Below, piece after piece: positions 8,629-29,958 of a DNA stretch of 64,000 nucleotides (its first letter is position 1; the number at the start of each line of letters is the position of its first letter). This DNA is from Candidatus Electrothrix aarhusensis. Lineage in GTDB: Bacteria > Desulfobacterota > Desulfobulbia > Desulfobulbales > Desulfobulbaceae. The notes under the pieces were generated by a model, which was not told the DNA's origin, did not search any database, and saw only the letters and a list, made by a program, of their open reading frames with translations. The position numbers and the translations under genes are program-made. The stretch is from contig MTKO01000034.1 of the NCBI GenBank assembly GCA_004028505.1, positions 62,001 through 126,000 of the forward strand, written 5' to 3'.

Positions 8629-10650
8629 ATGTATCTCCAACACTTTGCCCTTGAACACTCTCCGTTCACTCGCCAACCGAATCTCGATGTGTTTTTTGCT
8701 CAGGCCGGGCGAAAAAATATCCTGAAAGATCTGCTTCATGATCTTCAGCAGGGTAATGCGGCAATGCTCCTTACTGGCCCGAAAGAATCCGGCAAAACTC
8801 TTTTCTGTCGACTGGTTCGGCATCGCTTGGAGGGAAGTTCGCGTAAGGTTGTTTATCTGGAGAATCCAGTTGGTTCCTTTGATGAGCTTCTCAGACAGAT
8901 CTGTCTGAAATTGGGCATGTCCTCGTCGGTTGATACTGGGCAGGATATGCCCACAGTTTTGCATGCATTACTTCAAAGCCAGAAAGAGAAGGGGTGCCCT
9001 GTTCTTTTGCTTATTGATGAGTCGGAAAAGATGTTCCTTGCCGCCCTGGAACGCCTGTTTCGTTTACTTCATGAGGTCAATGAGGTCTATGGGGTGCAGG
9101 CGCTCCTGGTCGGTCTGCCAACCCTGCATGCCTCTATTGATCAGCTCAGCAGCTACTGTAAGGATGTCAGGATTACATCAGCCTATGAGCTGGAGGCCTT
9201 TTCAGCGGAGGAGACAGGAGCCTACCTTGCTTATCGTCTCAGAACAGCAGGAGACGGCAGGGGAAGTAAAAGCCCCGTTTTTTCAGAGAACGCTGTACTT
9301 GAAGTTTTTCGTCTCGGCCAAGGCCTTCCCGGCGTGATAGATGGAATCGCTGAGGTGGCCTTGGAGAATGCTGCTGCTGCTGGAGCAAGCTCTGTTTTGC
9401 CGGTTCATGTTGCAGTGCCGAATAATCCTGTCGCTTCTCCTCTGCAGTTCGATGACGAGGAGTCCGGTGGAAGGCGTACAGGGCTACTGCTCTTACTTCT
9501 CCTATGCCTGCTCGCCTTCTTCTTTTTTGGTCGGGTCTCTTTCTTTTTAGATCAGGAGGATAAGCTGCAAGAGACCGTTCATGAATCTGTTGGTGTGGTT
9601 CCTGAAAACACAGAAATTTCACTCGCATTACCCAAGGACGAAGAAGCGCCCTTACCTTTTGTTGAGGAAGGCGACAGGTCAGACTATCCTGTCGGAAAAC
9701 TTTCCCCGAAAGACGCAGGTGAGCCTTCTCTTTTCCCCCTCCCTGTTCCTCTGCGCCCGGATTTTAAGAATAATCCAAATGAAGGTGGTGCTGAAGACCA
9801 TAAAGTAATTAAGCATGTTGGTCAACAATATAAAAAGATAGATAAAAATATTGTTTCAGGAGTTGTTGAGTCGGTAGATGAAAAAAACATAGAAACAAGA
9901 CAGCTGCTTTCTCCAGAAGAACTTAAGCAGGCCGTACAGGTCATCTCTTCGGACGGGGCTGGCACCGAAACTTTGGCTACGGCCAAGAAGCTCCCTGTTA
10001 TTAAGCCCACCTTGATTATTGAGCTCGTGCCGGGTATGAAAAAGACACGACTGCCTGCTGCTAGAGAGCCTGCTCCTAAATTTGAGCAAAAGACTGAGCA
10101 AAAGAGAAAAAAAGCGGCAATAGCCCCGCCGAAATCGAAAATCTTGATTCCTGTTGCTTCTGCCCGGGGAGTTGTTGCGCCAGCTGTCTCTGGGCGGCAA
10201 CAAATTCAAACTCAAATTCAAGCTCCTGTTGCTGTTCCTGTGCAGAAACAGGAAAAAATCCGGGCGCCGAAAATCAATGTAACGCCAGTTGCTCCGCAAT
10301 CTGCTTCTGCCAAGACGGACCAACTTTTTGCCAGATATCTTGGGGCTGGAAATCGATGGACCAAGGAAGCGTACGGAAATAAGTTTACAGTTCAGTTGCT
10401 TGTCTTGTCTGCGGATGATGCTGCTGTCAATATAAAAAATATGATTGTTCGGGATGAGTATCAGGAGCACCGGAGAAAACTCTATATTCTCCACCGAAAC
10501 ACGATTCCGCCCACTTTCTTTGTCTGCTACGGTGTCTATAACAGTATGGACGAGGCGAGAAATGCCAGGAATACCATGCCTCTTTTCCTCCGTAAACATC
10601 ACCCCTATGCCCTTTCGATCAGTGATGTGTTAGCAAAGGCGAGGGATTAG
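8629..10650 (+). CDS. Membrane-anchored ExeA-like AAA+ ATPase with C-terminal SPOR-like domain
   Basis: 673 residues. The N-terminal ~265 residues are an ExeA/GspA-type ATPase: FALEHSPFTRQPNLDVFF opening, Walker A GPKESGKT (50-57), Walker B LLLIDESEKM. A single hydrophobic stretch at about 284-306 (many Leu and Phe) places the ATPase in the cytoplasm and the rest outside. A long, low-complexity Pro/Lys/Val/Ala linker (~310-560) probably spans the cell wall. The last ~95 residues resemble a SPOR/DamX-type domain. ExeA proteins bind peptidoglycan and help assemble secretion or pilus machines; DamX-like proteins act at the septum. No secretion operon adjoins the gene, so the specific role is open. 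Confidence 0.8.
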   Translation: MYLQHFALEHSPFTRQPNLDVFFAQAGRKNILKDLLHDLQQGNAAMLLTGPKESGKTLFCRLVRHRLEGSSRKVVYLENPVGSFDELLRQICLKLGMSSSVDTGQDMPTVLHALLQSQKEKGCPVLLLIDESEKMFLAALERLFRLLHEVNEVYGVQALLVGLPTLHASIDQLSSYCKDVRITSAYELEAFSAEETGAYLAYRLRTAGDGRGSKSPVFSENAVLEVFRLGQGLPGVIDGIAEVALENAAAAGASSVLPVHVAVPNNPVASPLQFDDEESGGRRTGLLLLLLLCLLAFFFFGRVSFFLDQEDKLQETVHESVGVVPENTEISLALPKDEEAPLPFVEEGDRSDYPVGKLSPKDAGEPSLFPLPVPLRPDFKNNPNEGGAEDHKVIKHVGQQYKKIDKNIVSGVVESVDEKNIETRQLLSPEELKQAVQVISSDGAGTETLATAKKLPVIKPTLIIELVPGMKKTRLPAAREPAPKFEQKTEQKRKKAAIAPPKSKILIPVASARGVVAPAVSGRQQIQTQIQAPVAVPVQKQEKIRAPKINVTPVAPQSASAKTDQLFARYLGAGNRWTKEAYGNKFTVQLLVLSADDAAVNIKNMIVRDEYQEHRRKLYILHRNTIPPTFFVCYGVYNSMDEARNARNTMPLFLRKHHPYALSISDVLAKARD

Positions 10651-11599: not shown

Positions 11600-14500
11600 G
11601 GATGGTCTTGCCAAGATTACTCGCGTGTTGGCAGCTTCTCCGGTAAAGATCGATACACTTCATATTTTTTCCCATGCCGAGCCCGGCACTTTACTGCTTG
11701 GCAGTAAAAGAATTGACAGTGCGACGTTGGAACAGCCTTATGTGTACTCACAGCTTCACGGCACTTGGCGTGCTGCCCTTGCCGAACAGGCGGACATCCT
11801 TTTTTATGGCTGCGAGCTGGCAGCTGGCGAAGAAGGCTCAGGTTTCATTCATCGTTTTAGCAGGATATCTGGGGCAGATGTGGGCGCCTCTGATGATCTG
11901 ACCGGTAATGCTGGGTTGGGTGGTGACTGGGAGTTAGAGGCGACTGTCGGCCATGTTGAAGTTGCCGCGCTCCATGCTTTGTCATATCCCTATACGCTTG
12001 GGACAACGGAAATTTCTGGACGTATCAAAAAAGATGTGCAGGGTGATGCTGATATTGATGATGCCAATGATCTGGGAATTCCCGGTGTGCATGTGTATCT
12101 CTACCGGGATATTAATGGCAATAACCTGCCGGATAACAGCGATGTTCATTACGCCACCGCAGTTACCGATGCAAACGGTGACTACGCTTTTTCTGACAAC
12201 ATTCTGACCTATACCCGTGCAACCCTGCCTAACGGCACCTACTGGCTCGTTGCTGAAGTGGCAGGTATTGACACGCTGGGTGCCACTTTGGAGCAAACCT
12301 ACGGCGGTACAGGAGCCATGATTGATCCGGATTCAGACAGTTCCACTGAGGGTACCTACCGCTCTTCGGCAGGTTCAGCTTTCGGTGGGCGCCGTATGGA
12401 TACCTATGACAGTTTTAGCTCCACTAATCTTGATCTGAATACAGCCGAGCATATCATCCGCATTGATGTCAACAATGGAACGAATGTGGAAAATGATTTC
12501 GGTTTCGGTTTTATCGACAGCCTGATGGGTGGATATTCTGAATTTTACGTTCCCGGAGGAACAGATCTGATTCATGAAGCCCTTGATACGCTGAATGATA
12601 GCATTGATGATACCACTATGCGGGTAGTTATTTCTGTTATTACCAGTACGCCCGGCACGACGATTTTCTATGATCATTGGGAAGATGGCTACGATTTTAA
12701 TCCAGATGATCCCTATAACACAAGCGATGAATACCAGGTGGTTAGCAACGGAGGTTCCCCGGTAATTTTTGAAGGGGAAAATGTTCCTCTTAAACCGCGT
12801 GGTGCTACAGTGAAGTACGATTTTGGCGATCGAATCTATATAACGGGTGGGCCAGCCACCGTGAATGTCAATTTTTGGGAAGAACAGACAAAAACGATAT
12901 ACGCTAATTCTTGGGAATTGTTTCCGGTCAAACCTTTTCAGACGGAGTACACTATTCCTGGTACTCTGCTTAGGGAGAATGACGGAAATCCTAGAATGAT
13001 AGATGTGAACGGCGACGGTCTTGATGATGTTACCGCCTATGCTACAGGAGTAGATGTGGACGGTGATGGGAATGTTGATATCCCTGTGACGGATTATGAT
13101 GATTTTGAACATGTTTTCGGATTTATACAGGCCACCGAAGACGGCACCGCAGTAACTGCTACCGATTCGCTAGGTAACCTCATGGAGTTGGTGACTTTTG
13201 ATTCAGTCACCGGTGAACCGGTTTCAGCAGGAACCAATCCGGTACTGAACCGGGGGGAAACTGTTTTAATCGGGCAAGTTTTTGACGGTGTAACGGCTAT
13301 TGGCACAGATAACGGTAGCTTATTTGCTGAAATTAAAGGAAGTAAACCGATTCAGGTGGTTACCGTTATCGGTAATGACGATAGCAACTATGAATCAAGA
13401 GGTATTACCATCACTCCAAGTGTATTATGGGATAATGAATATTATATGCCGGTCGGGTATGATTCCAGCGGTAGCGGCGCTCAGGCGACAGTTTATTTCA
13501 ATAATCAGAATCCCTTCGATATCACGATTAATTACGAATCAAAAACAGATAGCGGTTCCTTTGTGGTTCCGGCAAATTCTATACGAAATTTTGAGCACCT
13601 GAAGGATGGAATTGCTAATAACACTCCATATTTGACAGATTCGGCCTATCGTTTTATCTCTGCGGGCGGAGTTAAATACGGTATGTTTGCCGCCATTGAT
13701 ACTGAGAGTCAGGTGCGTGATTGGGGGATGAATCTGGTGCCTGGCTATATACTGCGCAATGAGTATTTTTTGGGATGGGCACCGGGTTCTAATGATGGCG
13801 ATGAAAACGGCTCTCCCGTTTGGGTGACGCCAAAATACGATAATACTTTGATTTATTATGACGCAGACGGAGATGGTGTTGCTGATAATCCCTCTGGTAC
13901 TGTTCTGAACCGTTATGATTCATACAAAATATTTGGCCCTGACAACGATCAAACCGGTATGCATGTTTGGGGTACCGGACCTCTTGCCATTGCTTATGGC
14001 GAGGATCCAGAGATAGCCGCTCGGGGAAATCCGTATCTGGATTTAGGTTACGGAGTATTGCCTCTGCCTATGGACTGGATGGATGTGGCACTCGGCGTCA
14101 TTAAAACTACCGATACCCCAACAGTTGTCCCAGGAGGGGTAGCTGATTTTTCTTTAGTAATTCCGGCATGGCAGGCAGTGAGTGAGCTGACAATTAACGA
14201 TCTCCTGCCCGCTGGCTGGAGTTATGTTGCGGAAAGCACTCAGGTCGTTTTCAATAATGGCGGAGTAGAAGCCAGCTGGACTTTCGGAGATACTTCAGCT
14301 GTCGAACCCGCTCAGACGACTATACTGGGCAGAACTCAGCTGACTTGGGATGTTCAGGCAGTTCCGTTTAACATTCGAGATCTTGATCCCAATGATCATG
14401 TTTCCATTAAGTTTCAGGCTCAAGCGCCGGTTAGCGGTGCGGTGGGTCTTGCTGAAAATGAAAGCACGGTCTGTGGTAAGCGCGATCTGGACGATGACGG

Positions 14501-16703: not shown

Positions 16704-18361
16704 CGGTTGATATTACGGCCTATGCTAACGCCAATACAGGCATTCGTCTAAGCACCACCAGATTTACTGGTACTAACGAAGATTTTTATGTGAAGTATGT
16801 CCGGATTTATTACACTGATTTCCTTGCGGCCTTTAGCGATACGCTTCCGCACATACCGCCCAATATTATTCAATCCAGCGATAATTTTTACTTAGCAGCC
16901 TCTGATGATGGAGGAGTAGGGTTAGGTAGCGGGTCTGACTTCATGACAATTACCTACCAGGTTAGGGTGGATAATCCTATAACCGGAAGTCTTACCAGTA
17001 TTGATAATACAGTTAGTGTTACCGCCGATGAACTGACTCCGACAGAGGTGACAGACAGCGTGAGTGATGCTTTGCCTCCTTGTATTATCAGCGGTCAGGT
17101 TCGCCTTGACGTTGACGGTGACGGCTTGACCGGTGGGATCGCGGATGGTGACGATACGGGCATCGGTGCGGGTGTGATTATTGGTCTGTACGACAGCGCC
17201 GGCAATAATCCGATTCTGGACGCTTTGGGAAATCCTGTGACAACGACGACCGACGGAAACGGGAACTATACCTTCACTGGTATGCCTCCGGGCGATTACA
17301 CTGTGAAAGAGGTTAATCCACTGAATCACACCAGCGTGTCTGATACGGACGGGGCCAACGATGATTCCATAGACGTGACCGTGACAGCGGGCTCAGCGAG
17401 CACGGGCAATAATTTTCTTGATAAGGCTGACCAAAGCAGCCTCGGCAGCATCAGCGGTCAGGTTCGCCTTGACATCGACGGTGATGGCACGACGGGTGGA
17501 ATCGCAGACGTTCACGATACGGGCATTGGTGCGGGCGTAATTATTAGTCTATATGATAGCAACGGTACCCCAATTCAGGATGCTCAGGGGAATTCTGTGA
17601 CAACGACGACCGACAGCAACGGAAACTACACCTTCATTGGTGTGCCTCCGGGTGACTACATCGTGAAAGAGACCACTCCTGTGAATTACACCAGTGTCAT
17701 GGATTCGGAGGGGAGCAACAACGACGCCGTGAATGTGACTGTGACAGCGAATGTCGAGAGCACGGGCAACGATTTTCTTGATGTTCCAGATCCGGCTGTT
17801 ATTTCCGGTACAGTGACGCTTGACGCGGACCGTGACGGATTGTTCATCGGCGATGCAGAAGATACGAAACTGTCGGGTGTGACGGTGCAGCTGTTCACAG
17901 ATCCGAACGAAGACGGAGATCCTTCCGACGGTGTACAGGTGGGTGTGGACGCGCTCACCGACATGAACGGTGAGTACAGTTTTCCGAATATTCCTCCTGG
18001 AACCTACGTTGTGGTTGAGACCAACCCTGTGAACTACAGCAGTGTGTTTGACAAAGACGGCGACAGAAGTGATCCTGCGGCGAATCGTATTCCTGTGACA
18101 GCGGTCGCAGGAGGTAGCCACGGCGGTAATGATTTTCTCGATGTGCAGGATCCGGCTGTCATTTCGGGTACAGTGACGCTTGACGCGGACCGTGACGGCG
18201 CGTTCATCGGTGATGCCGGGGATACGAATCTATCCGGCGTGAAAGTGGAACTGTTCGCCGCCGACGGTTTGGGCAACCCGACCGGTGCGGCACTGGACAG
18301 TGCCGTCACCGCCGTCGACGGCACGTACAGCTTCGCCGATGTTCCTCCGGGAGCTACGTGA
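16550..18361 (+). CDS. Giant surface protein, fragment 3: jelly-roll segment and SdrD-B-like repeats
   Basis: Continues the protein directly (FLEIDYSEVVSG onward is the rest of the beta domain interrupted in fragment 2). From about 17089 there are four SdrD-B-like modules of ~115 residues, each opening ISGxVxLDxDxDG with a calcium-binding Asp-rich loop and containing a PPGxYxVxET strand. Modules 1-2 and 3-4 are near-duplicates at DNA level (17089 with 17449; 17803 with 18163), so this block has expanded by recent tandem duplication. The frame ends at 18361, where one base is missing from the codon after PPG; the same motif resumes at once in fragment 4. The piece has no start signal of its own. 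Confidence 0.75.
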   Translation: MFLEIDYSEVVSGIGSDNIDATDTFSVDIWDGTAWQSIHSISDDFDDPSPVTVDITAYANANTGIRLSTTRFTGTNEDFYVKYVRIYYTDFLAAFSDTLPHIPPNIIQSSDNFYLAASDDGGVGLGSGSDFMTITYQVRVDNPITGSLTSIDNTVSVTADELTPTEVTDSVSDALPPCIISGQVRLDVDGDGLTGGIADGDDTGIGAGVIIGLYDSAGNNPILDALGNPVTTTTDGNGNYTFTGMPPGDYTVKEVNPLNHTSVSDTDGANDDSIDVTVTAGSASTGNNFLDKADQSSLGSISGQVRLDIDGDGTTGGIADVHDTGIGAGVIISLYDSNGTPIQDAQGNSVTTTTDSNGNYTFIGVPPGDYIVKETTPVNYTSVMDSEGSNNDAVNVTVTANVESTGNDFLDVPDPAVISGTVTLDADRDGLFIGDAEDTKLSGVTVQLFTDPNEDGDPSDGVQVGVDALTDMNGEYSFPNIPPGTYVVVETNPVNYSSVFDKDGDRSDPAANRIPVTAVAGGSHGGNDFLDVQDPAVISGTVTLDADRDGAFIGDAGDTNLSGVKVELFAADGLGNPTGAALDSAVTAVDGTYSFADVPPGAT

Positions 18362-18510
18362 TCGTCGAGACGAACCTGACGAACCACAGCAGTGTGTTTG
18401 ACAAAGACGGCGACACGAGTGATCCTACAGCGAATCGTATTCCTGTGATAGCGACCGCAGGCGGCAACCATAGCGGTAATGATTTTCTCGATGTGCAGGA
18501 TCCGGGGAGC
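17089..18510 (+). repeat. Tandem SdrD-B-like coding repeats
   Basis: Two adjacent pairs of ~355-bp units. Units at 17089 and 17449 share long identical stretches (for example GGTCAGGTTCGCCTTGAC), as do those at 17803 and 18163 (CGGTACAGTGACGCTTGACG or close to it). They encode calcium-binding SdrD-B-like modules and are likely to expand, contract or mis-assemble. Confidence 0.8.
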
Positions 18511-21500
18511 ATCGGCAATCGAATTTGGTTAGATGAAAATGGAGACGGTGTACAGGATGCCGGTGAGGCCGGGATTTCCGGTGTGACCGTATATATTGAT
18601 GATGACGGCACTGCCGGGTACTCTGCTGGAGACACTCAGGTGGTGACGGACAGTAATGGTAATTACCTGCTTAAAGGGGTTACTCCGGGTACCCATGAGG
18701 TAACGGTGAAGTCGGACACCCTACCAGCAGGGCTGGCAGTTAATCCCACTTATGATGAAAACGGCATTGGCACATCTCATCAGACAGATGTCATTCTGAG
18801 TGCGGGCAATACCCATACCACTGCCGACTTCGGCTATAACTGGGTTTCACCGACTGATACTGATAGTCCGACTGCTGGCGCAACCGGTGCCATTGGAGAC
18901 CGTATCTGGAATGATGCTGATGGTGACGGTGTACAGGATCCAGGTGAATCCGGTATAAAAGGCGTGACTGTTACCCTGTTGACTGATGACAACGGCGACG
19001 GTCTATATGGTGGAGTCGGAGATAATTTGACACCTTTAACCACTACAACCGATGCAACCGGTCGTTATATCTTTGATGACCTTGCACCAGGTAGCTATGT
19101 CATTGAGACAACTCCACCGGGCGGTTATACCCAGACTGGCGATCCTGATGAGCCGGGTGTTATCGCTACGTTAGGCGACAACAGAACAACAGACCCTGTG
19201 GTTCTCGCACCGGGCGATGTCTATGTTAATGCTGATTTTGGGTATAAGGCAGCTGGTTCAACCTCGACAATTGGCGACCGGATCTATCTGGATGCCGACG
19301 GTGACGGAACCGATGACGGTCTCGGCACGGAACCGGGTTTCGCTGGCGTGACTGTAGCTCTGAAAAACAGTTTAGATGAAATTATCGCTTATGATGTCAC
19401 CGATAAAGACGGGAAGTATCTCTTCCCTGGCCTGCCTTCCGATACATATACTGTGGAGGTGACGGATACCCGTAATGTGCTTGGTCAGTTCACGCAAACC
19501 GGTGATCCCGGCGGTAGCGGCAGCCTTGATAATGCGCATACCTTGCCTCTGATTGCCGGAACAGACTACCTTGATGCTGATTTTGGTTATGCCCCTAAAG
19601 GTCATACTAATGGTGAAGGGTTGATCGGCGACACCGTGTATCTTGATCTGAACAACGACGGTAATCCCGATGCCGGGGAGGGTATGGAAGGCGTGACTGT
19701 CAATCTTTGTGCTGATGCGGCCTGTATAACTCCCTTGGCAAGTACAGTTACGAATCAGAACGGTCAGTATAGTTTCGGTAATCTGCCTGACGGGAATTAT
19801 TCGGTTCAAGTGGATACAAGTACACTGCCCGGAACCGGTCTGGTCAACACCAAAGATCAGGACGGAGATAACGATAATAAAACTCCAACTACAATCAGCG
19901 GTGGAAGTATCCATCTGGATCGCGATTTCGCCTATCAGAAGACCTCTAATCCTAACACGATATCAGGAACCATCTGGAAGGATGCCAATGCAGACGGCAC
20001 GTTGAACGATACCGGAAAGGGATTTTCCGGTATCACGGTTGTTCTCCGTGATGCAACCACTGGTAATATCGTTGCAACCACCACCACTGATTCAAACGGT
20101 GACTACAGTTTCAGCAATCTGCCGGACGGCACTTATACTGTGGATGTGGATGATCAGGACGGTAGCTTGGAAGGCTTCTTGCACAGCGACGGACCAAATG
20201 ACGGTGCGGACGACAACAGCCAGGTCAACGGCTACAGCATCAATGTCAGCGGAGGCGAAACCAACAACACCGGCGATTTCGGTTATAATTATCCCCTTTC
20301 CACCTATGCCGTAGTGAGCACCTTTGATGCCTATATCAATGCGGACAATAAAGTGGTCCTGGAATGGACAACAGCCAGTGAGATAGGTACGCTAGGCTTC
20401 TTGCTGGAGCGCTTGAACGAACAGAGTGGCAAGTATCAGACGGTTACTAAAAAACTATTGCCCGGCATGCTCAGTCCGCCGCATGGTGGCACCTATCGTT
20501 ACATTGACAAGGCCGCCAAACCAGGTAGAAAGTATACCTATCGCGTGGTTGAGGTGGCGGTCAATAGCCAGGGAACGATTTCTGATCCCTACACCGTGCA
20601 GGCAAGTAAATCATTGCCGGTGAACAGTCATATGTTTGCAGGCGGTTCGGAAGGATATTCCTTGACGCACCAAGATTTTTCCAAAAAACAACTTCGGCGT
20701 TTTGCGGCACGCGGTAAAATCGCTTTTGAGCTTGCTGCGGCAAAGCGAAACAAGACTGGAAATATTTTGAAAGTTCCGGTCAGCAAAAGCGGGATGGTTT
20801 ATCTGGCCGCCACTGAGCTGGCAGCCTCATCCGGTATTCCTCATAGTCAGGTTGTTCAGTATCTGAAGGGCGGAAAATGCCTAGTGACCTTGGCCGGAGC
20901 CTCTGTCTCCCTGATAACAGCCAATACCGGTTCAGGTATTTGGTTCTACGGGCAAGCTCCAGATCGGAACGATATTGGGCAAAACGTCTACCTTCTTGAA
21001 TTGGGCAAAAAAGGCGTGAAGGTGAAAAACATGTCGGGTCGTGCGAAAGAAGTTGTTGCTGAAGAGCGATCTTTCGTCGCTCGGGCCAAGGTTGAGGAGA
21101 ACCACCAGCCTATTCATCTATATATCAATACCCCGGTGAAGGATTTCTGGGCCTGGGAGTATATGTTCGCTTATGGCACTGAGGCTTCACTGAATCATAA
21201 TGTGGATTCTCCGTATATGACTGGAGAGGGCGAAGTTGTCCTGACGGTGAACCTTGTCGGAATGACGAACAGTAATTCTGGGCAGGAGGCCCCGTATAAG
21301 GTCGCGGTTTTTCTGAACGACGTTGAGGTCGGTATAGCGGAATGGTCGGAGCAGGGCGATTATACGTTCCAAGGTAAAGTTTCTGCTGATCTGTTGCGGG
21401 AAGGCGGCAACGAGGTACGGCTTGTTTCTCAATTGAACAGCGGCGTGGTCTATTCTTTCATTTATCTTGATTCCTTTGAGCTCGATTATCAGCGCAGCTA

Positions 21501-22839
21501 TCAGGCGGTAAACGGCGAACTGATCTTCGCTAATGCGGGGTATGATAGCATCACCGTTCAGGGGTTCAGTAGCAGTAATGTTCTGGCCCTTGATACTACA
21601 AATCCAAATAAACCCTTGCGGTTGCGGACCCTGCCAGGCAAGAATGAGGCTGGTGAGTACACAATCACTATTCTGGCCAAGCCAGAGCATAACTATTTCA
21701 TGACTGAAAATATCGGCCTGACAGTTTCCAGCGATATAACTGTTGACAGTCCCTCTCAACTGCACAATAGGGACAATCATGCGGATTATCTGGTGATCAG
21801 CCCGTTGAACATGATGTCCTCAGCGCAGCGGCTTGCCGATTATCGCGCGGCCCAAGGAATGACTGCGATGACCATTGATATTGAGGATATTCAGGATGAG
21901 TTCAGTCATGCTCTGGCCGCGCCGGAGGCGGTGCATGAATTTTTGGCCTATGTGTATGACAACTGGTCAATGCCACCACAGTATGTGGTGCTGATCGGCG
22001 ACGGTTCGTACGATTACAAGGATTATCTCGGCTATGGCTATCCTGTTGTGCCAACAGAACTGGTGGCGACTGAGGACGGCTTTTTCCCCAGCGATAACCG
22101 TTTTGCGGATGTTGTCGGTGATGACGGGATTCCAGAATTTGCCATAGGCAGGATTCCAGTTGTTAACAGCCTGGAGCTTAATGAATATATTGAGAAGCTG
22201 ATCAGCTACGAGCAGGGGGCCTCTTATGGAGAAAATTCGGTCTTGAACCTAGTAACAGACAGAACGGATTCCACAGCTGGGGATTTTCGTGCCAGTGCGG
22301 ATAAGGTCGCTGAGCTCATGCCGAAGAGTTTTTCCGTGAACCGTCTTGATGCGAGCAGCTTGGGTAACGGCGGAACCCATTCCGGGGTTGCGGCTGCGTT
22401 GCGGCAGGGAGGTGGAATTATGCATTACATAGGGCATAGTTCTCTGATAGCCTTCGGTCGGAGCAGCTCCCTGTTGACCGCCTCTGAGATAGAATCCATG
22501 AGTGATACAGGATCTCCTTTGTTGATGGTGAGTATGGCCTGTTCCACAGCGAGTTTTGGCTACCCGGCAATGAGGAGTATCGGTGAAGCAGCCGTGCTGC
22601 AAGCGGATGGCGTGGCGGCTGGTTTTTTCGGGGCCACTGGCCTGTCCAAAAATTATCTTGCCGATGTTATGGCCGAGGGCTTTTATCGAGGCCTGCTTGA
22701 TCCGGCCACCTCCGGGGTTGGCGATGCGGTTGTGAAGGCTAAGCGTGATTATGCTGCTCAGGGACTGAGCAATGATCCGCTTTATATTTACAATTTTCTT
22801 GGTGACCCTGCGATGTCGGTGCCTGCTGGCAGTCGTTGA
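18358..22839 (+). CDS. Giant surface protein, fragment 4: SdrD-B-like repeats and C25 gingipain-like protease
   Basis: The first ~640 residues hold the end of one SdrD-B-like module and about five more (calcium-loop motifs DENGDGVQDAGE, DADGDGVQDPGE, DLNNDGNPDAGE). A fibronectin-type-III-like segment (VLEWTTASEIGTLGFLLER) and a pro-domain-like beta region follow. The last ~350 residues are a peptidase C25 domain: DYLVISP, VVLIGDGSYDYKDY, then the catalytic His in HYIGHSS (codon 22435-22437) and the catalytic Cys in SMACSTASFG (codon 22540-22542). Gingipain-like enzymes are secreted cysteine proteases. The protein ends NFLGDPAMSVPAGSR with no sorting tail I recognise. Architecture is read directly; a role in surface processing or attachment is inferred. 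Confidence 0.85.
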   Translation: MIVETNLTNHSSVFDKDGDTSDPTANRIPVIATAGGNHSGNDFLDVQDPGSIGNRIWLDENGDGVQDAGEAGISGVTVYIDDDGTAGYSAGDTQVVTDSNGNYLLKGVTPGTHEVTVKSDTLPAGLAVNPTYDENGIGTSHQTDVILSAGNTHTTADFGYNWVSPTDTDSPTAGATGAIGDRIWNDADGDGVQDPGESGIKGVTVTLLTDDNGDGLYGGVGDNLTPLTTTTDATGRYIFDDLAPGSYVIETTPPGGYTQTGDPDEPGVIATLGDNRTTDPVVLAPGDVYVNADFGYKAAGSTSTIGDRIYLDADGDGTDDGLGTEPGFAGVTVALKNSLDEIIAYDVTDKDGKYLFPGLPSDTYTVEVTDTRNVLGQFTQTGDPGGSGSLDNAHTLPLIAGTDYLDADFGYAPKGHTNGEGLIGDTVYLDLNNDGNPDAGEGMEGVTVNLCADAACITPLASTVTNQNGQYSFGNLPDGNYSVQVDTSTLPGTGLVNTKDQDGDNDNKTPTTISGGSIHLDRDFAYQKTSNPNTISGTIWKDANADGTLNDTGKGFSGITVVLRDATTGNIVATTTTDSNGDYSFSNLPDGTYTVDVDDQDGSLEGFLHSDGPNDGADDNSQVNGYSINVSGGETNNTGDFGYNYPLSTYAVVSTFDAYINADNKVVLEWTTASEIGTLGFLLERLNEQSGKYQTVTKKLLPGMLSPPHGGTYRYIDKAAKPGRKYTYRVVEVAVNSQGTISDPYTVQASKSLPVNSHMFAGGSEGYSLTHQDFSKKQLRRFAARGKIAFELAAAKRNKTGNILKVPVSKSGMVYLAATELAASSGIPHSQVVQYLKGGKCLVTLAGASVSLITANTGSGIWFYGQAPDRNDIGQNVYLLELGKKGVKVKNMSGRAKEVVAEERSFVARAKVEENHQPIHLYINTPVKDFWAWEYMFAYGTEASLNHNVDSPYMTGEGEVVLTVNLVGMTNSNSGQEAPYKVAVFLNDVEVGIAEWSEQGDYTFQGKVSADLLREGGNEVRLVSQLNSGVVYSFIYLDSFELDYQRSYQAVNGELIFANAGYDSITVQGFSSSNVLALDTTNPNKPLRLRTLPGKNEAGEYTITILAKPEHNYFMTENIGLTVSSDITVDSPSQLHNRDNHADYLVISPLNMMSSAQRLADYRAAQGMTAMTIDIEDIQDEFSHALAAPEAVHEFLAYVYDNWSMPPQYVVLIGDGSYDYKDYLGYGYPVVPTELVATEDGFFPSDNRFADVVGDDGIPEFAIGRIPVVNSLELNEYIEKLISYEQGASYGENSVLNLVTDRTDSTAGDFRASADKVAELMPKSFSVNRLDASSLGNGGTHSGVAAALRQGGGIMHYIGHSSLIAFGRSSSLLTASEIESMSDTGSPLLMVSMACSTASFGYPAMRSIGEAAVLQADGVAAGFFGATGLSKNYLADVMAEGFYRGLLDPATSGVGDAVVKAKRDYAAQGLSNDPLYIYNFLGDPAMSVPAGSR

Positions 22840-23055: not shown

Positions 23056-23084
23056 TTGACATTGTGGAATTTGACAATTATATT
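23056..23084 (+). promoter_or_regulatory. Sigma-70-type promoter of the PqqD / radical SAM locus
   Basis: TTGACA at 23056-23061, a 17-base spacer and TATATT at 23079-23084, about 50 bases upstream of the first gene of the locus. It is the best promoter match in this part of the window. Confidence 0.65.
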
Positions 23085-23135
23085 GGAAAAAAGCTAACCT
23101 AAAAATATAAGGCAACGCGCAAATTATCCAAGTTG

Positions 23136-23438
23136 ATGAATATAAAAATAAAGCTTAACAGCATTTATAGACAGGCCGATAATATTGTCACCCGCAAGGT
23201 AATGGACGAGACCCTGCTGGTGCCTATATCTGGTGATCTTGCCTCTATGGATGAGTTGTACACTCTGAATGATACCGGAGCCTTTATCTGGCAGGCCCTT
23301 GACGGAACCCGTACCCTTGCCGAGATCGGAAAGCAGTTGGAGCAGGAGTATGATACACCGTTGGAGGCTATTGAGGTAGACATGCTGGAAATTATGAGTG
23401 GTCTGGCCGGTGCCGGTCTGATTGACGGCGAAGCCTGA
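23136..23438 (+). CDS. PqqD-like peptide-binding protein (RiPP recognition element)
   Basis: 100 residues from the ATG at 23136. The PqqD fold is clear: VMDETLLVPISGDLASMDELYTLN strand region, TGAFIWQALDGTRTLAEI, then a winged-helix half ending MSGLAGAGLIDGEA. PqqD-type proteins bind the leader of a ribosomally made precursor peptide and present it to a radical SAM enzyme. The stop overlaps the start of the radical SAM gene (TGATG, one-base overlap), so the two are translationally coupled. It is the first gene after the promoter at 23056. It is not the PQQ pathway protein itself: no pqqA, B, C or E gene lies nearby. Confidence 0.88.
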   Translation: MNIKIKLNSIYRQADNIVTRKVMDETLLVPISGDLASMDELYTLNDTGAFIWQALDGTRTLAEIGKQLEQEYDTPLEAIEVDMLEIMSGLAGAGLIDGEA

Positions 23439-24568
23439 TGGATGACTCTCTGGAAAAAAAATGCTTAGGAGGGGAGGGGAATGACTTAGCTCGTTATTTT
23501 GCTCGGGCAGCGGTGACTCATACCCCTTTATCTGTTTCTTTTGAGTTGACACATCGCTGCAATTTTCGTTGTGTTCATTGCTATCTTGGTGATCAGGAGG
23601 CAATTCATAAACATCGGCATCGAGAACTTGATACAGATACGATACTCGGTCTGCTGGACGAAATGGTGGAAGCAGGCACTTTGTTTTTGACCCTCACTGG
23701 CGGCGACCCCATGCTTCGGCCTGATTTTGTCAAGATTTATGAGCATGCGGTTCGCGCTGGTCTTTTAGTTTCAGTCTTATGTAATGGTTCTTTGATTACC
23801 AATGAGATTGTTCGTTCATTTGTCAGATATCCGCCAAGGATTGTTGATATTACCCTTTATGGAGCCACCCAGAATACCTTTGAGGCGATAACTCAAAAAG
23901 ATGGCTCATTTGCAGCATGTTTGAATAGTATAGAGCGGTTACGTAAGGCTAACGTGCGGTTGCATTTAAAGACCGTGGTTATGACGTTGAATTATAAGGA
24001 AATGCCTGCCATGCGAGCAATAGCTAAAGATATGGAACTGGAGTTTCGGCATGACTGCATGCTTCATCCTGTTGTTGCCAATTCAGATAATGCCGGACGC
24101 ACGAACGGTGGTGGGGATATTTTACGTTTACGTATACCTCCTGAATGGGCTGTGGAAACAGACTTTGAAGTTAAGGAGCTAGCTCGCTCCTTAGCAGAAT
24201 TGGTAAAGAAATTGGATGGTAAAAAAGTGTCTGAGGAGCTGTACCAATGTCAGGCCGGAAAGATATCCTGTCATATTGATCCGTACGGTATAATGCAACC
24301 CTGCTTGATAACTCCTTCTCATTCTACTATTCGGGCGGTAGATGGAATAAAGGCTGGTTGGAAAAAGCTGTATGAAGCATTTTCAGCATCGTCAGCTGTT
24401 GAGTCGTTTTCTTGTAAATTGTGTGAGGATAAGATTATTTGTCCTGCATGTCCAGGCTCTTTTGTTTTGGAAACAGGGCGACCTGAACAAGCGGCAGAGT
24501 ACTATTGTCAATATACGGCGTTACGTCGAGAAAAAATGAGAAGTCTTTCCAGGAAAGAGGTAACATGA
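23438..24568 (+). CDS. Radical SAM/SPASM peptide-modifying enzyme
   Basis: 376 residues. The radical SAM 4Fe-4S motif is CNFRCVHC (after FELTHR), followed by the LTGGDPMLRPDF strand-loop that contacts SAM. The C-terminal third carries the SPASM/twitch cysteines: CQAGKISCHIDPYGIMQPC and then CKLC, CPAC and a late Cys, enough for auxiliary Fe-S clusters. Enzymes of this group make C-C, thioether or ether crosslinks, or other radical modifications, in precursor peptides. The upstream PqqD-like gene supplies leader recognition and the downstream gene (ATGA overlap at 24565-24568) encodes the likely substrate. The chemistry performed cannot be told from sequence. Confidence 0.9.
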   Translation: MDDSLEKKCLGGEGNDLARYFARAAVTHTPLSVSFELTHRCNFRCVHCYLGDQEAIHKHRHRELDTDTILGLLDEMVEAGTLFLTLTGGDPMLRPDFVKIYEHAVRAGLLVSVLCNGSLITNEIVRSFVRYPPRIVDITLYGATQNTFEAITQKDGSFAACLNSIERLRKANVRLHLKTVVMTLNYKEMPAMRAIAKDMELEFRHDCMLHPVVANSDNAGRTNGGGDILRLRIPPEWAVETDFEVKELARSLAELVKKLDGKKVSEELYQCQAGKISCHIDPYGIMQPCLITPSHSTIRAVDGIKAGWKKLYEAFSASSAVESFSCKLCEDKIICPACPGSFVLETGRPEQAAEYYCQYTALRREKMRSLSRKEVT

Positions 24569-24747
24569 TGGGTAATGATAAAAAAGATAATGATCAAAAT
24601 AAGGCAAGAGAGGGAATAAAGCGAAAACGGCAGTATGAGCCGCCCAAATTGACAGCCGTTTCCTTGTTTGCCGATCAGGTTCTTGGTGTATGTAATAAGC
24701 TACCAAATACTACATCTACATGTGATCTGTTAGCTTTTATGTCTTGA
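24565..24747 (+). CDS. Candidate RiPP precursor peptide
   Basis: 60 residues (a start three bases later is equally possible), directly coupled to the radical SAM gene by an ATGA overlap. The first ~25 residues are very polar and Lys-rich. Then comes YEPPKLTAVSLFADQVLGVC, which has the Y-x-x-P-x-L ... hydrophobic ... VLG-C layout seen in many leaders that pair with PqqD-like proteins. The short C-terminal core (CNKLPNTTSTCDLLAFMS) has two Cys separated by ten residues plus several Thr, Ser and Asn as possible modification sites. Size, position and leader character all argue for the substrate of this locus. I do not recognise the peptide family by name. Confidence 0.75.
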   Translation: MMGNDKKDNDQNKAREGIKRKRQYEPPKLTAVSLFADQVLGVCNKLPNTTSTCDLLAFMS

Positions 24748-24770
24748 GAAATGTCGTGGTTGGATGCCCT

Positions 24771-25706
24771 ATGCCTAATGACCATTCTCTGTTATTCAAG
24801 AAGAAATCTTCTCGCTATACTACGTTTCAGCTCGGCGGGTTGACGATAGGTGTTGAGAACAGTGTTTGGCCAAGCTTGTTGAGAGAGGATCCGGCTGAAC
24901 ACGTATCTTTTCTTTGCTCCTCTAATTGTCTTGAAGCCGATGTTCAGATCTGTATGGAGATGGAATCGGTATATGAAAAAAGTGTTACTCCATCAGCGAT
25001 AGTATTTTCAGATAAGTATTATAGAATAAATGAGGTGTCGAACGGCTTTCAAGTGCTTCGTTACGGGGTGCAACAGCAGCAACGCCCGTATTTAACCATT
25101 CAGGCTGACCGGAATTTTTCAAATTTTATATACAGCTTTCATATACCCTCTTGTTGCTCTGAGAAAAAACAGACTATTTTTCCAGCTGTCTCCGCTTTGG
25201 ATGCTCTTCTTCTTAAGCATACTGTAATAAATCATCAGGGGCTGATTATTCATGCGGCAGGGGGGGCTATTCAGGGGAAAGGTATGGTTTTTTCGGCCCA
25301 TTCGGGAATAGGAAAATCGACAATTTGTCGCCTGCTCTCGCAGTCGCAGGGAAACATTCTTTTTAGTGAGGAGAGGATAATAATTCGTTCTCATGAGATA
25401 GGTTGGAAGGTATGGGGGACTCCTTGGCATGGGGAAAGTAAGATAGCTTTGAATGAATCAGCTCCTTTTGCGGCCCTTATTTTTCTTCGTCAAGCACAAG
25501 AAACTGCTATAACCCGTCTGCATCCTTCTGATGCCCTACGCCGCTTACTACAAACTACGTCTATTCCTTGGTATAATGAAGAATGGATGAGCAAGGGCCT
25601 TGCAGTTTGTGAAACTTTACTTCAGAATATTCCTGTATTTGAGCTAGCCTTTAGGCCTGATCGTAGTGCTGTGCAGGCTGTGGAGCGTCTTGCAGGTGAA
25701 CTGTGA
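24771..25706 (+). CDS. HprK-like P-loop kinase of the peptide locus
   Basis: 311 residues from the ATG at 24771; a TTG at 24744 that overlaps the peptide gene's stop is the alternative and would give tight coupling. The C-terminal half is a P-loop domain like HPr kinase: HAAGGAIQGKGMVFSAHSGI then GKST (Walker A). A later WGTPWHGE segment and a C-terminal PVFELAFRP follow the family pattern. The N-terminal half is a beta-rich domain with no known name. HprK-like proteins recur in PqqD-containing peptide clusters (lasso-peptide and others), where they may phosphorylate the precursor. The role here is inferred from context. Confidence 0.75.
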   Translation: MPNDHSLLFKKKSSRYTTFQLGGLTIGVENSVWPSLLREDPAEHVSFLCSSNCLEADVQICMEMESVYEKSVTPSAIVFSDKYYRINEVSNGFQVLRYGVQQQQRPYLTIQADRNFSNFIYSFHIPSCCSEKKQTIFPAVSALDALLLKHTVINHQGLIIHAAGGAIQGKGMVFSAHSGIGKSTICRLLSQSQGNILFSEERIIIRSHEIGWKVWGTPWHGESKIALNESAPFAALIFLRQAQETAITRLHPSDALRRLLQTTSIPWYNEEWMSKGLAVCETLLQNIPVFELAFRPDRSAVQAVERLAGEL

Positions 25707-25723
25707 TGTAAGAAAGGTATGGC

Positions 25724-26350
25724 ATGAAAAACAATGTATTGAAAAGTAGACACCAGTTTCTCATTTTGTCCTTCATAATGTTCTTTGCTGTTTCGGATTC
25801 GGCTGTTGCATCTGTTGCGTTATTTGAATCATTCGATTCAGTCCTCTTATGCGGTAAGCCAGAGGGCTGGACTGTGAATAATTTTGGAGTTGATGAGGGA
25901 TGGTATTTTAATGAAGGTTTACAATTTAATGAGACTGGTGCTAATGGTTGTTATGCCTTTGCTAAAAGCGATGAACAACCACAGTATATGGATACAGTCC
26001 TCGTGACTCCTTCAATCAATTGCTCGGCAACAGACTGCGAGATTTTGTCCTTTCGACATTATACACGCGCTGACAAATCGGAAACCACCTTTACAGTGGA
26101 AATTTCCACTGATGAGGGAGGGGTTTGGTCTGAGATATGGCGGAAAGAGCATGAAGGGGATACTAACGATCGAAAGCAAATAGAGTTTATAGATATTAAA
26201 GCGATAGCTGATGACCAACCGAATGTTCAACTTCGTTTTCATTATACAGCGGTTAATGATTGGGAGTGGCAGGTTGATGATGTAAAGGTCGCATCCAAGT
26301 TTAATTGGGTTCTGTTTCTACCAGCAATAATTGCCAAGACAAACCTATGA
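25724..26350 (+). CDS. Exported jelly-roll (cleaved-adhesin-like) protein with FNW-LFLP tail
   Basis: 208 residues: signal peptide (FLILSFIMFFAVSDSAVAS), then one ~150-residue beta domain (LFESFDSVLLCGKPEGWTV ... DTVLVTPSI ... DWEWQVDDVKV) that matches the cleaved-adhesin / MAM-like jelly rolls found next to gingipain-type proteases. It ends KFNWVLFLPAIIAKTNL. Almost the same tail closes the protein encoded at 26929-28005. The gene lies 17 bases after the kinase gene, and its stop overlaps the start of the S26-type peptidase (ATGA), so all belong to one transcript. Function unknown; probable surface or periplasmic location. Confidence 0.75.
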   Translation: MKNNVLKSRHQFLILSFIMFFAVSDSAVASVALFESFDSVLLCGKPEGWTVNNFGVDEGWYFNEGLQFNETGANGCYAFAKSDEQPQYMDTVLVTPSINCSATDCEILSFRHYTRADKSETTFTVEISTDEGGVWSEIWRKEHEGDTNDRKQIEFIDIKAIADDQPNVQLRFHYTAVNDWEWQVDDVKVASKFNWVLFLPAIIAKTNL

Positions 26351-26820
26351 GTACACCGGCAGTGATCAGTATCAGGGACCAGGGGGCTCTTGAGCTTATC
26401 CGTGTTTTGTTGCAGCAAGGTGTTACTGTCCGTTTACGGGTTTCTGGTATCTCCATGTTGCCGCTAATATCTGAGGGAGACTTAGTTGAAGTATCGCCTG
26501 TAGAAGAAAAAAAATTAAGAAGAGGCGATATTGTTTTTTTTTGCGATCAACAGGAAAATCCCTTTATTCATAGGTTGCATAGATGCCAATCTGATTTAGA
26601 TAATGTCCTTCTGGTACAAACCAAAGGTGATGCTTGTGCATGGTATGACCCAGCTATACCAATAAATCGAGTTTTGGGTCGGGTTCAACGTATTATGGGG
26701 GAGCGAGGCGCTACAGATCTGCGTGCCCCGATTATTCGCTGGCGAGCTCGTCTTCTCGTTGCTCGAACTACAAGTTTTTTTTTGTTGCGCAGAACTGTAA
26801 AAATGTATGGTCTTTTTTGA
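26347..26820 (+). CDS. S26-type signal-peptidase-like protease
   Basis: 157 residues from the ATG at 26347, which overlaps the stop of the preceding gene. SGISMLPLISEGD is the S26 catalytic-Ser box, followed by RRGDIVFF, FIHRLHR and LVQTKGDACAWYDP. The His in the HR segment together with TKGDA fits the Ser-His (SipW/Sec11-like) branch rather than the bacterial Ser-Lys LepB type. There is no long N-terminal membrane anchor; a weak hydrophobic stretch lies near the C-terminus (RTTSFFLLRR). Placed between two exported proteins with the same tail, it could process them or the modified peptide. That link is inference from position only. Confidence 0.75.
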   Translation: MSTPAVISIRDQGALELIRVLLQQGVTVRLRVSGISMLPLISEGDLVEVSPVEEKKLRRGDIVFFCDQQENPFIHRLHRCQSDLDNVLLVQTKGDACAWYDPAIPINRVLGRVQRIMGERGATDLRAPIIRWRARLLVARTTSFFLLRRTVKMYGLF

Positions 26821-26869
26821 CGTAATAACTTTATTGCTTTGTTGATTAAAAGTTCTTTCACCGAGTAAG

Positions 26870-26892
26870 TTATATAAACTTTATTTATATAA
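26870..26892. promoter_or_regulatory. 9-bp inverted repeat upstream of the Cna-B-like gene
   Basis: TTATATAAA at 26870-26878 and TTTATATAA at 26884-26892, perfect arms around a five-base centre, 37 bases before the start codon at 26929. It could be an operator or simply an AT-rich promoter core. Confidence 0.4.
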
Positions 26893-26928
26893 GGTCTGGT
26901 GGAATATTCCCCTTAAGGAGGTGGTGAA

Positions 26929-28005
26929 ATGAGAAATGTAGTCTTGAGAAACAGCCTGATTCGCCAAGTGGGATGGGGTGTCATTTGTGTTTTTTTGTTG
27001 TTTGGCGGCAGAACAGCTTGGTCCGCCACTATTAAAGGGATCGTGAATAACGGGACTGCGGGAATTGGGGGGCTTGTAGTCGCAACGTATGAGGAGAACA
27101 GTGGATCATTGACCGGGTGGGATCGTACGGATTCCCAAGGCAAATATGAAATTCCAACGTTGTCGGCAGCCATCTCGCATAAAGTAGTATTTTTTACTTA
27201 TTATACGGATTATATAGAGGAATGGTATACTACAACTCCTCATGCCTATACTTTTTTTGATGCTGAATTGATTACTTTGGCTTCAGAGTCGGCTGTGAAG
27301 GACTTAGGGGTGTTTACATTACGTCTTGGGGCCAATATCGCTGGGATTGTGACAGAAGAAGGCTCTGGCAACTTTATTGAAAATATCTCTGTTGTAATCT
27401 ATGACTCCGACGGGAATGTGGTGACTAATGCTGTGCCAACTACTACTAACGGTGCATATGATATTGGTGGACTCAATGTCGGAACGTACTTTGTGCAATT
27501 CTGGGCTGGGAATACGGACTATACCAGTGAATGGTACAGTGAAAGTACTGATGCATATACACGGTTAACTTCGACATCAATAGAGATCTCTTCGTTATCA
27601 GAAACTTTAGAGGCAAATGTCCAACTTGTAGCGGGTGGTGCTATTTCTGGAACGGTAACGAGTAGTGGTGCGCCAGTTGTGGAAGGACTAGTAGAAGCAT
27701 ACGATGCTGGTTCAAGTGCTGATGATAGCCCCGTAGGATTCGCAGAAACAGACACTAACGGAATGTATACTATTAAAGGGCTGCCAACAACTGAGAGTTT
27801 CAAAGTACGATTTTATCAAACAGCAGCAGGTGGTGGATTGACTGAATGGTATGATAATAAGCCGGATATTAATAGTGCGGTTCCGGTTACAACAGGTACC
27901 AGTGATGTTGATGCAATGCTTGGGGACGTGCTTGATCCACCAAACTCAAGCTTCAACTGGCTTCTTTTTCTCCCAACAATAATAATAAACACCACGAAAT
28001 TGTGA
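26929..28005 (+). CDS. Exported Cna-B/carboxypeptidase-regulatory-like repeat protein with FNW-LFLP tail
   Basis: 358 residues, preceded by a very strong ribosome-binding site (AAGGAGGTGG). The signal peptide (VGWGVICVFLLFGGRTAWSA) leads into three ~100-residue beta modules, each opening IKGIV, IAGIV or ISGTV and holding a DSQGKYEIPTL-type strand, as in Cna-B or carboxypeptidase regulatory-like domains. Each of the three also carries an EWY motif (EEWYTTTP, SEWYSES, TEWYDNKP). It ends NSSFNWLLFLPTIIINTTKL, matching the tail of the 25724 gene. Likely secreted or surface-bound. Three modules plus the shared tail are seen directly; a role as partner or substrate of the locus is inferred. Confidence 0.75.
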   Translation: MRNVVLRNSLIRQVGWGVICVFLLFGGRTAWSATIKGIVNNGTAGIGGLVVATYEENSGSLTGWDRTDSQGKYEIPTLSAAISHKVVFFTYYTDYIEEWYTTTPHAYTFFDAELITLASESAVKDLGVFTLRLGANIAGIVTEEGSGNFIENISVVIYDSDGNVVTNAVPTTTNGAYDIGGLNVGTYFVQFWAGNTDYTSEWYSESTDAYTRLTSTSIEISSLSETLEANVQLVAGGAISGTVTSSGAPVVEGLVEAYDAGSSADDSPVGFAETDTNGMYTIKGLPTTESFKVRFYQTAAGGGLTEWYDNKPDINSAVPVTTGTSDVDAMLGDVLDPPNSSFNWLLFLPTIIINTTKL

Positions 28006-28077: not shown

Positions 28078-29958
28078 CTACGCCGACATCCGCTCCAAAA
28101 TACGATAGTTCCGGTTAACCATCTCCTGCGGATCAATGATTAGCCCAGCCTGAATCATGGCATTATCGTAGATCTGCTCAGCTATATCCTTTGCAAAATC
28201 CTGATCCTTGGTTCGCAGATCAGCCATCTTTTTGATCAACGAGCTGGCCGGGTTAATTTCCATTTCTTTTTTGCTAGACATACCCATAGGGTTATCCTGC
28301 GTGTTTTTTCCCTGAGTTGCCAGGATTCGCTCCATGGATGAGGTCATGTAACCGTCTGAGTTAAGAATCATAGCTGGGCTATCTACCAAGCGGGTTGAAG
28401 GCTTGACTTCCTTGACCTTGTCGCCCAGAACCTCTTTCATCCATTTACAGAGCGAGGTCTGCACAGCCTCAGCCAGTTTTTCTCCTCCGGCCTCATCTTG
28501 AGTCTCCTCGTTTTTTTCCGTGCTTTCCGGCAGACGCAGATCGGCTCGGTCAGCGGAAAGGAGTTTCTTGCCGTCAAACTCGCCCAGATGAGAGAGGACA
28601 AAGTCGTCAATGGGTTCCAGGGTGTAGAGGATCTCGATATCACGTTTTTTAAACATCTCCACATAGGGGCCGTTCTCTATAGCTCCCCGGCTGGGTCCGT
28701 TGATGTAGTAGATCTCGTTCTGTCCTTCAGCCATCCGATCCACATATTCCTGCAAAGAGGTCATGCTGCCTGCTTCGCTGGCGGAAGACTCAAAACGTAA
28801 CAGCGTGGAAAGCTCTTTCTGGTATTCAAAGTCAGAGGTCACGCCCTCTTTCAGGAAAATACCAAAGGTCTTCCAGAACTCCATATACTTTTTGTCGTCC
28901 TTCTTGGCCTCTTCTGCCATCAATTTAAGAAAGCGTTTAGTGATAACCCTGCGCAGTTTGGCCACCAGAGCATTATCCTGGAGAGATTGGCGGGAGATAT
29001 TCAGGGGAAGGTCCTCTGAATCGACCACACCCTTGAGAAAACGGAGCCACTCGGGCAGGATGCTCTTGCTGTGTTGGTCGATGAGTACCTTTTGGCAGTA
29101 GAGGTTGACACCGGGCTCCATTCGGCCCATGCCCATATTTTCGAAGTTGTCCTTGGGTACAAAGAGCAGGGCATTGATGGCCAACGGTGCATCAGCGGCA
29201 AAATGGAGACGGAAGGTGGGCTCATCATAGGCATTGCCGACAAACTTATAGAATTCGTTGTACTCTTCGTCTGTGATTTCGCTTTTGGAGCGGCCCCAGA
29301 TGGCCTCAACCGTGTTGACCTTTTTCCCTTCCACATTGACTGGAAAGGGGATAAAGGTAGAATACTGCTTGATGATGCGCTCTAAGGTGAATTTCTGGCC
29401 GTACTCCTCAGCATCGTCTTTCAGTTCAATGATGATCTTGGTGCCCCGATGCAGGCCGTCACATGGGCTGATGGTATAGGAACCGTTGCCGTCGGAATGC
29501 CATTCATGGCCTTCGCTGCCGTCCCAAGAGCGGGTTTGGACAGTGACGGTTTTAGCTGCCATAAAGGCGGAGTAAAAACCTACGCCGAACTGGCCGATGA
29601 GGCTGACATCCTTTTTGGCGGCCTCAGCCAATTCTTCGATAAATTTGCCGGACCCGGAATGAGCAATGGTGCCCAGGTTTTCCTCAAGCTCCTGCGCTGT
29701 CATGCCGATACCGGTATCGGTGATGGTCAAAGTGTGTTTTTTATCATCACAGTCAATATTGATCTCAAGAGGGACATGGGCGTCGAATTCTGGCTGTTCA
29801 GTAAGGGAAAGATGACGAAATTTTTCTAAGGCATCTGAGGCATTAGAGACTAATTCACGGACAAAAATATCTCGTTCAGTGTAGAGTGAATTGATGACGA
29901 TGTCGAGAACCTTTCGGGTCTCTGCTTGAAATTGTTTGGTTTCAACCTGTGTACTCAT
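28078..29958 (-). CDS. htpG: Molecular chaperone HtpG (Hsp90)
   Basis: 626 residues, the normal size for bacterial Hsp90. The GHKL ATP-binding motifs are intact: ELVSNASDALEKFRHL, TDTGIGMT and GQFGVGFYSAFMAA. The middle domain (catalytic Arg loop near NISRQSLQDN) and the dimerisation domain follow, with no MEEVD tail, as expected in bacteria. HtpG folds client proteins with DnaK in the cytoplasm and is often heat-induced. The start has AAGGATAAC upstream. A heat-shock promoter could not be identified with confidence. The gene is complete and without frameshift, and it converges with the exported-protein locus across a shared terminator. Confidence 0.97.
   Translation of the reverse strand: MSTQVETKQFQAETRKVLDIVINSLYTERDIFVRELVSNASDALEKFRHLSLTEQPEFDAHVPLEINIDCDDKKHTLTITDTGIGMTAQELEENLGTIAHSGSGKFIEELAEAAKKDVSLIGQFGVGFYSAFMAAKTVTVQTRSWDGSEGHEWHSDGNGSYTISPCDGLHRGTKIIIELKDDAEEYGQKFTLERIIKQYSTFIPFPVNVEGKKVNTVEAIWGRSKSEITDEEYNEFYKFVGNAYDEPTFRLHFAADAPLAINALLFVPKDNFENMGMGRMEPGVNLYCQKVLIDQHSKSILPEWLRFLKGVVDSEDLPLNISRQSLQDNALVAKLRRVITKRFLKLMAEEAKKDDKKYMEFWKTFGIFLKEGVTSDFEYQKELSTLLRFESSASEAGSMTSLQEYVDRMAEGQNEIYYINGPSRGAIENGPYVEMFKKRDIEILYTLEPIDDFVLSHLGEFDGKKLLSADRADLRLPESTEKNEETQDEAGGEKLAEAVQTSLCKWMKEVLGDKVKEVKPSTRLVDSPAMILNSDGYMTSSMERILATQGKNTQDNPMGMSSKKEMEINPASSLIKKMADLRTKDQDFAKDIAEQIYDNAMIQAGLIIDPQEMVNRNYRILERMSA

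Follow-up and report, generated by a model that had tools for sequence, protein, structure and literature searches.

We describe a gene cluster in Candidatus Electrothrix aarhusensis, located in a 64-kb stretch of DNA (the window, G000:C1:62001-126000) within the 3.73-Mb draft genome labelled G000, that likely directs the synthesis of a phosphorylated, radical S-adenosylmethionine (SAM)-modified member of the ribosomally synthesized and post-translationally modified peptides (RiPPs). The cluster encodes a PqqD-family protein, a radical SAM enzyme, a precursor peptide, an HprK-like kinase and an S26-type protease—apparently a phospho-RiPP cassette related to the linear polyphosphorylated peptide (LPP) class—and probably combines LPP-like working with radical SAM chemistry, in a new host group and with new partner genes. 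If so, one RiPP pathway would unite the chemistry of a radical SAM enzyme, phosphorylation by a kinase and leader removal by a signal-peptidase-like protease, extending LPP-like logic beyond Bacillota to Desulfobacterota and other phyla. An earlier note on the window had proposed a seven-gene peptide-modification locus; all seven genes were found where it had placed them, and there is good support for its RiPP interpretation, which comprises leader binding, radical chemistry and a kinase. Its view that the set matches no named RiPP class needs correction, LPP being the closest class, and it missed the C25 gene directly upstream of PqqD. The features of the block, together with its two conserved flanks, are as follows:

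18358..22839, + strand: C25 (gingipain-like) peptidase with SdrD_B repeats and a C-terminal catalytic domain (PF01364, 1.9e-70)
23136..23438, + strand: PqqD-family protein, a discrete RiPP recognition element (RRE) and predicted leader binder (PF05402, 2e-16; below the NCBIfam PqqD cut-off)
23438..24568, + strand: radical SAM/SPASM enzyme (Radical_SAM PF04055, 2e-22; CNFRCVHC)
24565..24747, + strand: precursor peptide, 60 aa (YxxPxL and LFADQVL leader, two core Cys, C-terminal Ser)
24744..25706, + strand: HprK-like kinase, starting at TTG 24744 or ATG 24771 (weak HprK-type family matches, motifs, structure model)
25724..26350, + strand: exported choice-of-anchor J (jelly-roll) protein (NF038128 above cut-off; signal peptide; C-terminal tail)
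26347..26820, + strand: S26/signal-peptidase-like protease, predicted leader peptidase (S24/S26 peptidase match; Ser36-His75-Asp95)
26929..28005, + strand: exported CarboxypepD_reg-repeat protein (repeats; signal peptide; C-terminal tail)
8629..10650, + strand: left flank, outside the block, AAA (ExeA-like) ATPase gene
28078..29958, - strand: right flank, outside the block, htpG

The cassette genes are tightly coupled, with the overlaps that the earlier note had described: TGATG between the stop of pqqD and the start of the radical SAM gene (23436-23440), ATGA between the radical SAM gene and the precursor (24565-24568), and a precursor stop codon overlapping the possible TTG start of the kinase (24744-24747; ATG 24771 being the alternative). 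The 60-residue peptide with a YxxPxL...VLG-C leader was likewise recovered from ATG 24565, reading YEPPKL...LFADQVLGVC. A transporter gene is absent from the block, as expected from the claim that no ATP-binding cassette exporter is present. The suggestion that maturation and export depend on the S26 protein and the general secretion (Sec) route held in part: the S26 protein is a plausible maturation protease, but signal peptides indicate the Sec route for the big proteins alone.

The search of other genomes for the precursor and gene set that the earlier note had proposed showed that the order C25–PqqD–radical SAM–precursor–kinase–S26 is kept in eight cable-bacterium relatives (L026-L033, one of which stops with its contig ahead of the S26 position), with a ninth matching locus in UBA5173 (L056). 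Because the gene order repeats in eight relatives and the precursors form an alignable family with invariant leader positions, the locus is not a chance arrangement. In the eight relatives, exported proteins number one or two and lie among these genes or downstream of them, and in some loci the precursor or the kinase is present twice. Strong kinase matches among 57 relatives were found only in Electrothrix (7/8 genomes) and Electronema (2/3 genomes), while close relatives of the radical SAM protein occur in cable bacteria and in metagenome-assembled genomes (MAGs) of Desulfobulbaceae such as UBA5173. At E<=1e-12, the kinase profile matched 47 of 395 Desulfobacterota genomes. Distant cassettes consisting of PqqD, radical SAM, precursor and kinase genes, often with an S26 protein too, are present in Kiritimatiellae, Lentisphaerae/Verrucomicrobia, an actinobacterial MAG, Omnitrophota and other Desulfobacterota.

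In the window, the precursor leader contains Y24xxP27xL29 and, up to residue 40, LFADQVL, followed by a core with C43 and C53 and a C-terminal Ser60. Across the 12 precursors of the close-family alignment, Y23, P26, L33-F34-A35-D36 and V38 (59-aa numbering) are invariant, and pairwise identity averages 0.66 over the leader motif vs 0.26 over the core. When the precursor profile was run against 395 genomes of the phylum, the window gave the sole strong match, and most weak matches adjoin kinases and represent distant precursors. A leader-only profile yielded 31 distinct precursors located beside both a kinase and a radical SAM gene, from Desulfobacterota and the other host groups named above (L081 is included, its kinase lying just outside that locus and being seen in L089/L164 on the same contig). 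In all 31, two or more Cys follow the leader, within a variable core, and 30 of them end in Ser, as counted from the resulting table. At radical SAM loci with no detected kinase (n=5), the last residues are G, G, D, W and S, i.e., Ser in one of five; at kinase loci lacking a radical SAM gene (n=2), they are R and Q. The background frequency of C-terminal Ser is 7.3% (102/1405 open reading frames, ORFs). Comparing 30/31 with 1/5 gives a Fisher p of ~4e-4, which is indicative only, since the sequences are related and relatedness was ignored. The lasso peptide kinases PadeK and PsmK phosphorylate the C-terminal Ser of their precursors, and this Ser is conserved where a kinase gene is present (PMC9266682). 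The same rule, under which a precursor with a neighbouring kinase gene is expected to end in Ser, thus appears from the sequences to recur in a radical SAM setting—a simple relationship open to laboratory testing. Separately, the kinase-linked precursors at L108, L110, L115 and L117 are of other kinds, with no C-terminal Ser and in some cases with Gly/Cys repeats, and seem to be additional undescribed families.

The PqqD protein is a stand-alone RRE of 100 aa, conserved in all relatives. The radical SAM protein, whose gene is tightly coupled in every close relative, combines the CxxxCxxC motif with seven invariant C-terminal Cys (C271, C289, C326, C329, C335, C338 and C357) in a SPASM-like arrangement. 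In the kinase, a His, SGxGK[ST], R207 and GTPW are invariant, and the structure model (mean predicted local distance difference test, pLDDT, 87.5) adopts an HprK/PEPCK fold, with Foldseek matches to PEPCK (1.6e-6) and HprK/P (3.5e-5). Ahead of the invariant Arg, the kinase of the window has the acidic pair EE, and near relatives mostly have DE or EE. None of the NCBIfam equivalog models scored over cut-off for the PqqD protein, the radical SAM protein, the kinase or the precursor. The S26 protein displays a Sec11-type Ser36-His75-Asp95 triad, in which His75 and Asp95 are invariant and Ser36 is almost so; its profile finds Sec11A/C, subunits of the human signal peptidase (1.8e-11), and an N-terminal transmembrane segment is not obvious. 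The LPP protease LppS relies on Ser, His and Asp for catalysis and requires its RRE (PMC13381572); given this precedent and the Sec11-type triad, a leader peptidase is the likeliest role for the S26 protein.

On this basis, we infer a pathway in which the PqqD-type RRE would bind the YxxPxL leader and present the precursor, the radical SAM/SPASM enzyme would modify the Cys-containing core (a thioether-type crosslink being the likeliest outcome), the HprK-like kinase would phosphorylate the C-terminal Ser, and the S26 protein would cleave the leader after LFADQVL[GASQ]. Together with the exported C25 protease and the tail-bearing exported proteins, of which there are one or two, the cassette probably forms a single module.

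The module is conserved yet strongly polymorphic in cable bacteria, and no description of it was found in the papers searched. Genomes G004 and G007, which share 96-97% identity at an unrelated locus, are 97.4-98.4% identical at the nucleotide level in the flanks on both sides of the module, whereas the C25 gene and cassette between them drop to ~64-71% where alignable (43-56% in protein), the exception being a stretch at 84.5% at the 5' end of the C25 gene. In other genome pairs, htpG protein identity is 92-98% vs 39-74% for the cassette. Because the block diverges sharply while its flanks stay near-identical, the whole module is exchanged or diversified together, at a fixed site. By sequence, this pattern fits conflict or recognition systems and not housekeeping; module alleles swapped or diversified in this manner would be expected at a competition or self/non-self locus. 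We therefore put forward, tentatively and with considerable doubt, a polymorphic module in which a modified phosphopeptide, a giant exported C25 protease and tail-sorted proteins would act in cable-bacterium competition or self-recognition through whole-block allele swaps.

Several observations weigh against the proposed phosphopeptide pathway and its conflict role. With no transporter gene within the block, the route for peptide export is unexplained. The kinase-less comparison set is small, and one precursor beside a kinase (L007/L030) ends in CYAIAA, without a C-terminal Ser. Most of the distant kinases carry a DD acidic pair vs the EE of the window, and the conflict role depends mainly on one strongly contrasting genome pair (G004/G007).

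The exported proteins raise another explanation, namely that the radical SAM enzyme, kinase and S26 protein mature the C25, jelly-roll and CarboxypepD_reg proteins, with the small ORF serving as a mere adaptor or regulator. In cable bacteria, exported proteins always accompany the cassette, and the two exported proteins of the window share a near-identical C-terminal tail, FNWxLFLPxI, which the earlier note overlooked: the jelly-roll protein has the tail FNWVLFLPAIIAKTNL (~26294-26347) and the CarboxypepD_reg protein the tail FNWLLFLPTIIINTTKL (~27946-28002). The DNA pattern for this tail occurs six times in eight genus genomes, each time beside a kinase gene, and the reversed control pattern occurs in none of the eight. 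Nevertheless, this explanation is unlikely, as distant cassettes stand without exported proteins of these kinds yet retain the precursor leader, Cys and C-terminal Ser, and LIPxxxLL tails are found on exported proteins far from any cassette. The latter also weakens the candidate idea that the FNWxLFLP tail is a substrate of this cassette alone. A looser tail, [LIVF][LIVA]P[AVI][YLI]xx[LM]L, is found at the end of several further exported proteins of the same genomes; its profile gave 16 matches at E<=0.03, including part of the training sequences, and 12 of these lie <=3 residues from the stop codon. Judged by sequence, the hydrophobic tail looks like a lineage-wide trait that is not specific to the RiPP cassette, and perhaps an undescribed sorting signal. 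The AlphaFold model of the jelly-roll protein, built from three sequences, is poor (pLDDT 61.7) and suggests that the tail lies outside the β-sandwich. LIPxYxLL-type tails also end large exported proteins at L041, L161, L162, L163, L176 and L177, and likewise at L183, L184, L185 and L193, several with choice-of-anchor J or CarboxypepD_reg domains. At L178 (G001:C158), the tail motif SLIPVLSLLLFGQE sits just after the signal peptide instead of at the C-terminus.

A further possibility is that the locus is strictly an LPP system, beside which a radical SAM gene happens to lie. LPPs (Popov et al. 2026, PMC13381572) share with the cassette a discrete RRE (here a PqqD domain), an HprK-like kinase (here by fold and motifs), a SpI-like Ser/His/Asp leader peptidase (here by sequence, with cleavage predicted) and a YxxPx[V/L] leader followed by a variable C-terminal part. 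A second Electrothrix cassette in G007 (L034, G007:C1:2038000-2055000) pairs a radical SAM gene with the NTP transferase PF14907 alongside precursor, PqqD, kinase and S26 genes—by its gene content, an LPP-like set plus radical SAM; PF14907 is also found in other cassettes (L035, L048 and L166). However, a strict LPP assignment is quite improbable, given that the radical SAM gene is closely coupled in every close relative. Because the LppN NTP transferase and MsbA-like transporter are missing from the block and from close relatives, and the LPP motif YxxPxVLxHQxIxFETxxS is not found (YxxPxL is kept, the remainder being LFADQVL), the locus is not filed as LPP. In addition, the conserved Ser is C-terminal here, in contrast to the phosphorylated core Ser3 of LPPs, and this locus adds a radical SAM/SPASM enzyme, at least two core Cys, and C25 and tail-bearing exported partners. 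LPPs are said by their authors to be restricted to Bacillota, with no radical SAM protein among the listed core genes (PMC13381572), whereas this locus belongs to Desulfobulbales.

Other known systems share parts of the set. Paeninodin-type lasso peptides have a [YW]xxP leader, an RRE, an HprK-like kinase and a C-terminal Ser that goes with the kinase gene, but a macrolactam synthetase and B2 peptidase were not seen in the block or close relatives. ScmC (kinase-like), ScmD (PqqD-like) and ScmE/F (radical SAM) of the SynChlorMet system are among the nearest curated models, though NCBIfam scores fall far under cut-off (kinase 31.7/125, PqqD 26.6/100, radical SAM 74/400). Sactipeptides and ranthipeptides likewise combine a SPASM radical SAM enzyme with core Cys, but this locus has in addition a kinase and an S26 protein, and its thioether is a predicted one. 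The models for pyrroloquinoline quinone (PQQ) biosynthesis also remain under cut-off (PqqD 35.3 vs 46, PqqE 70.4 vs 381). Anti-phage defence was considered and rejected, PADLOC giving generic radical SAM (viperin) matches only.

Finally, the near cable-specific family raised the idea that the peptide serves the conduction machinery of cable bacteria, either as a redox cofactor or as a structural component (with a use like that of PQQ or mycofactocin, or a link to the Ni/S fibres); the distribution of kinase and radical SAM relatives, the core Cys and the failure of others to find a Ni-protein candidate for the fibres (PMC11976967) favour it, but it is very unlikely in view of the hypervariable core, the swapping of the whole block between near-identical genomes, an Electronema genome (G034) without the locus, C25-linked cassettes in other families (L164 and L165, where a C25 gene lies upstream on the same strand) and the wider occurrence of the cassette in several phyla. 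In the literature searched, which is part of the whole, no paper was found that connects radical SAM proteins or RiPPs with cable bacteria, nor any with at least four of the terms HPr kinase, lasso peptide, PqqD, radical SAM and signal peptidase.

The C25-family gene lies directly upstream of PqqD in every close relative, where it forms a single ORF of 2059-3392 aa when complete. In the window, the giant surface-protein region (11469-22839) consists of three overlapping ORFs in different frames, compared with single long ORFs in relatives; the split may reflect a draft-assembly error or a genuine break. The C25 ORF could represent the 3' portion of a longer gene, as ORF 16550-18361 overlaps it in another frame. 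ORF 11469-16703, the first of the three, contains a DUF4347 domain and did not align with the C25 proteins of relatives; perhaps it also belongs to the longer gene. At L036-L039 and L152, C25 genes adjoin kinase and radical SAM genes, with PqqD in L036-L039 and precursors ending LGS in L037-L039; by gene content, these may represent another, divergent type of C25-linked cassette. At L166 and L169, cassettes adjoin genes that, judged by eye, resemble polysaccharide chain-length/export genes; LPP cassettes in Bacilli have been reported beside genes of this kind. Lastly, at L026, L027 and L029 the interval between the module and htpG holds one or two genes of 189 aa that are near-identical (MGEAAKRYAVYEDL...) and possibly encode a Uma2-like nuclease.

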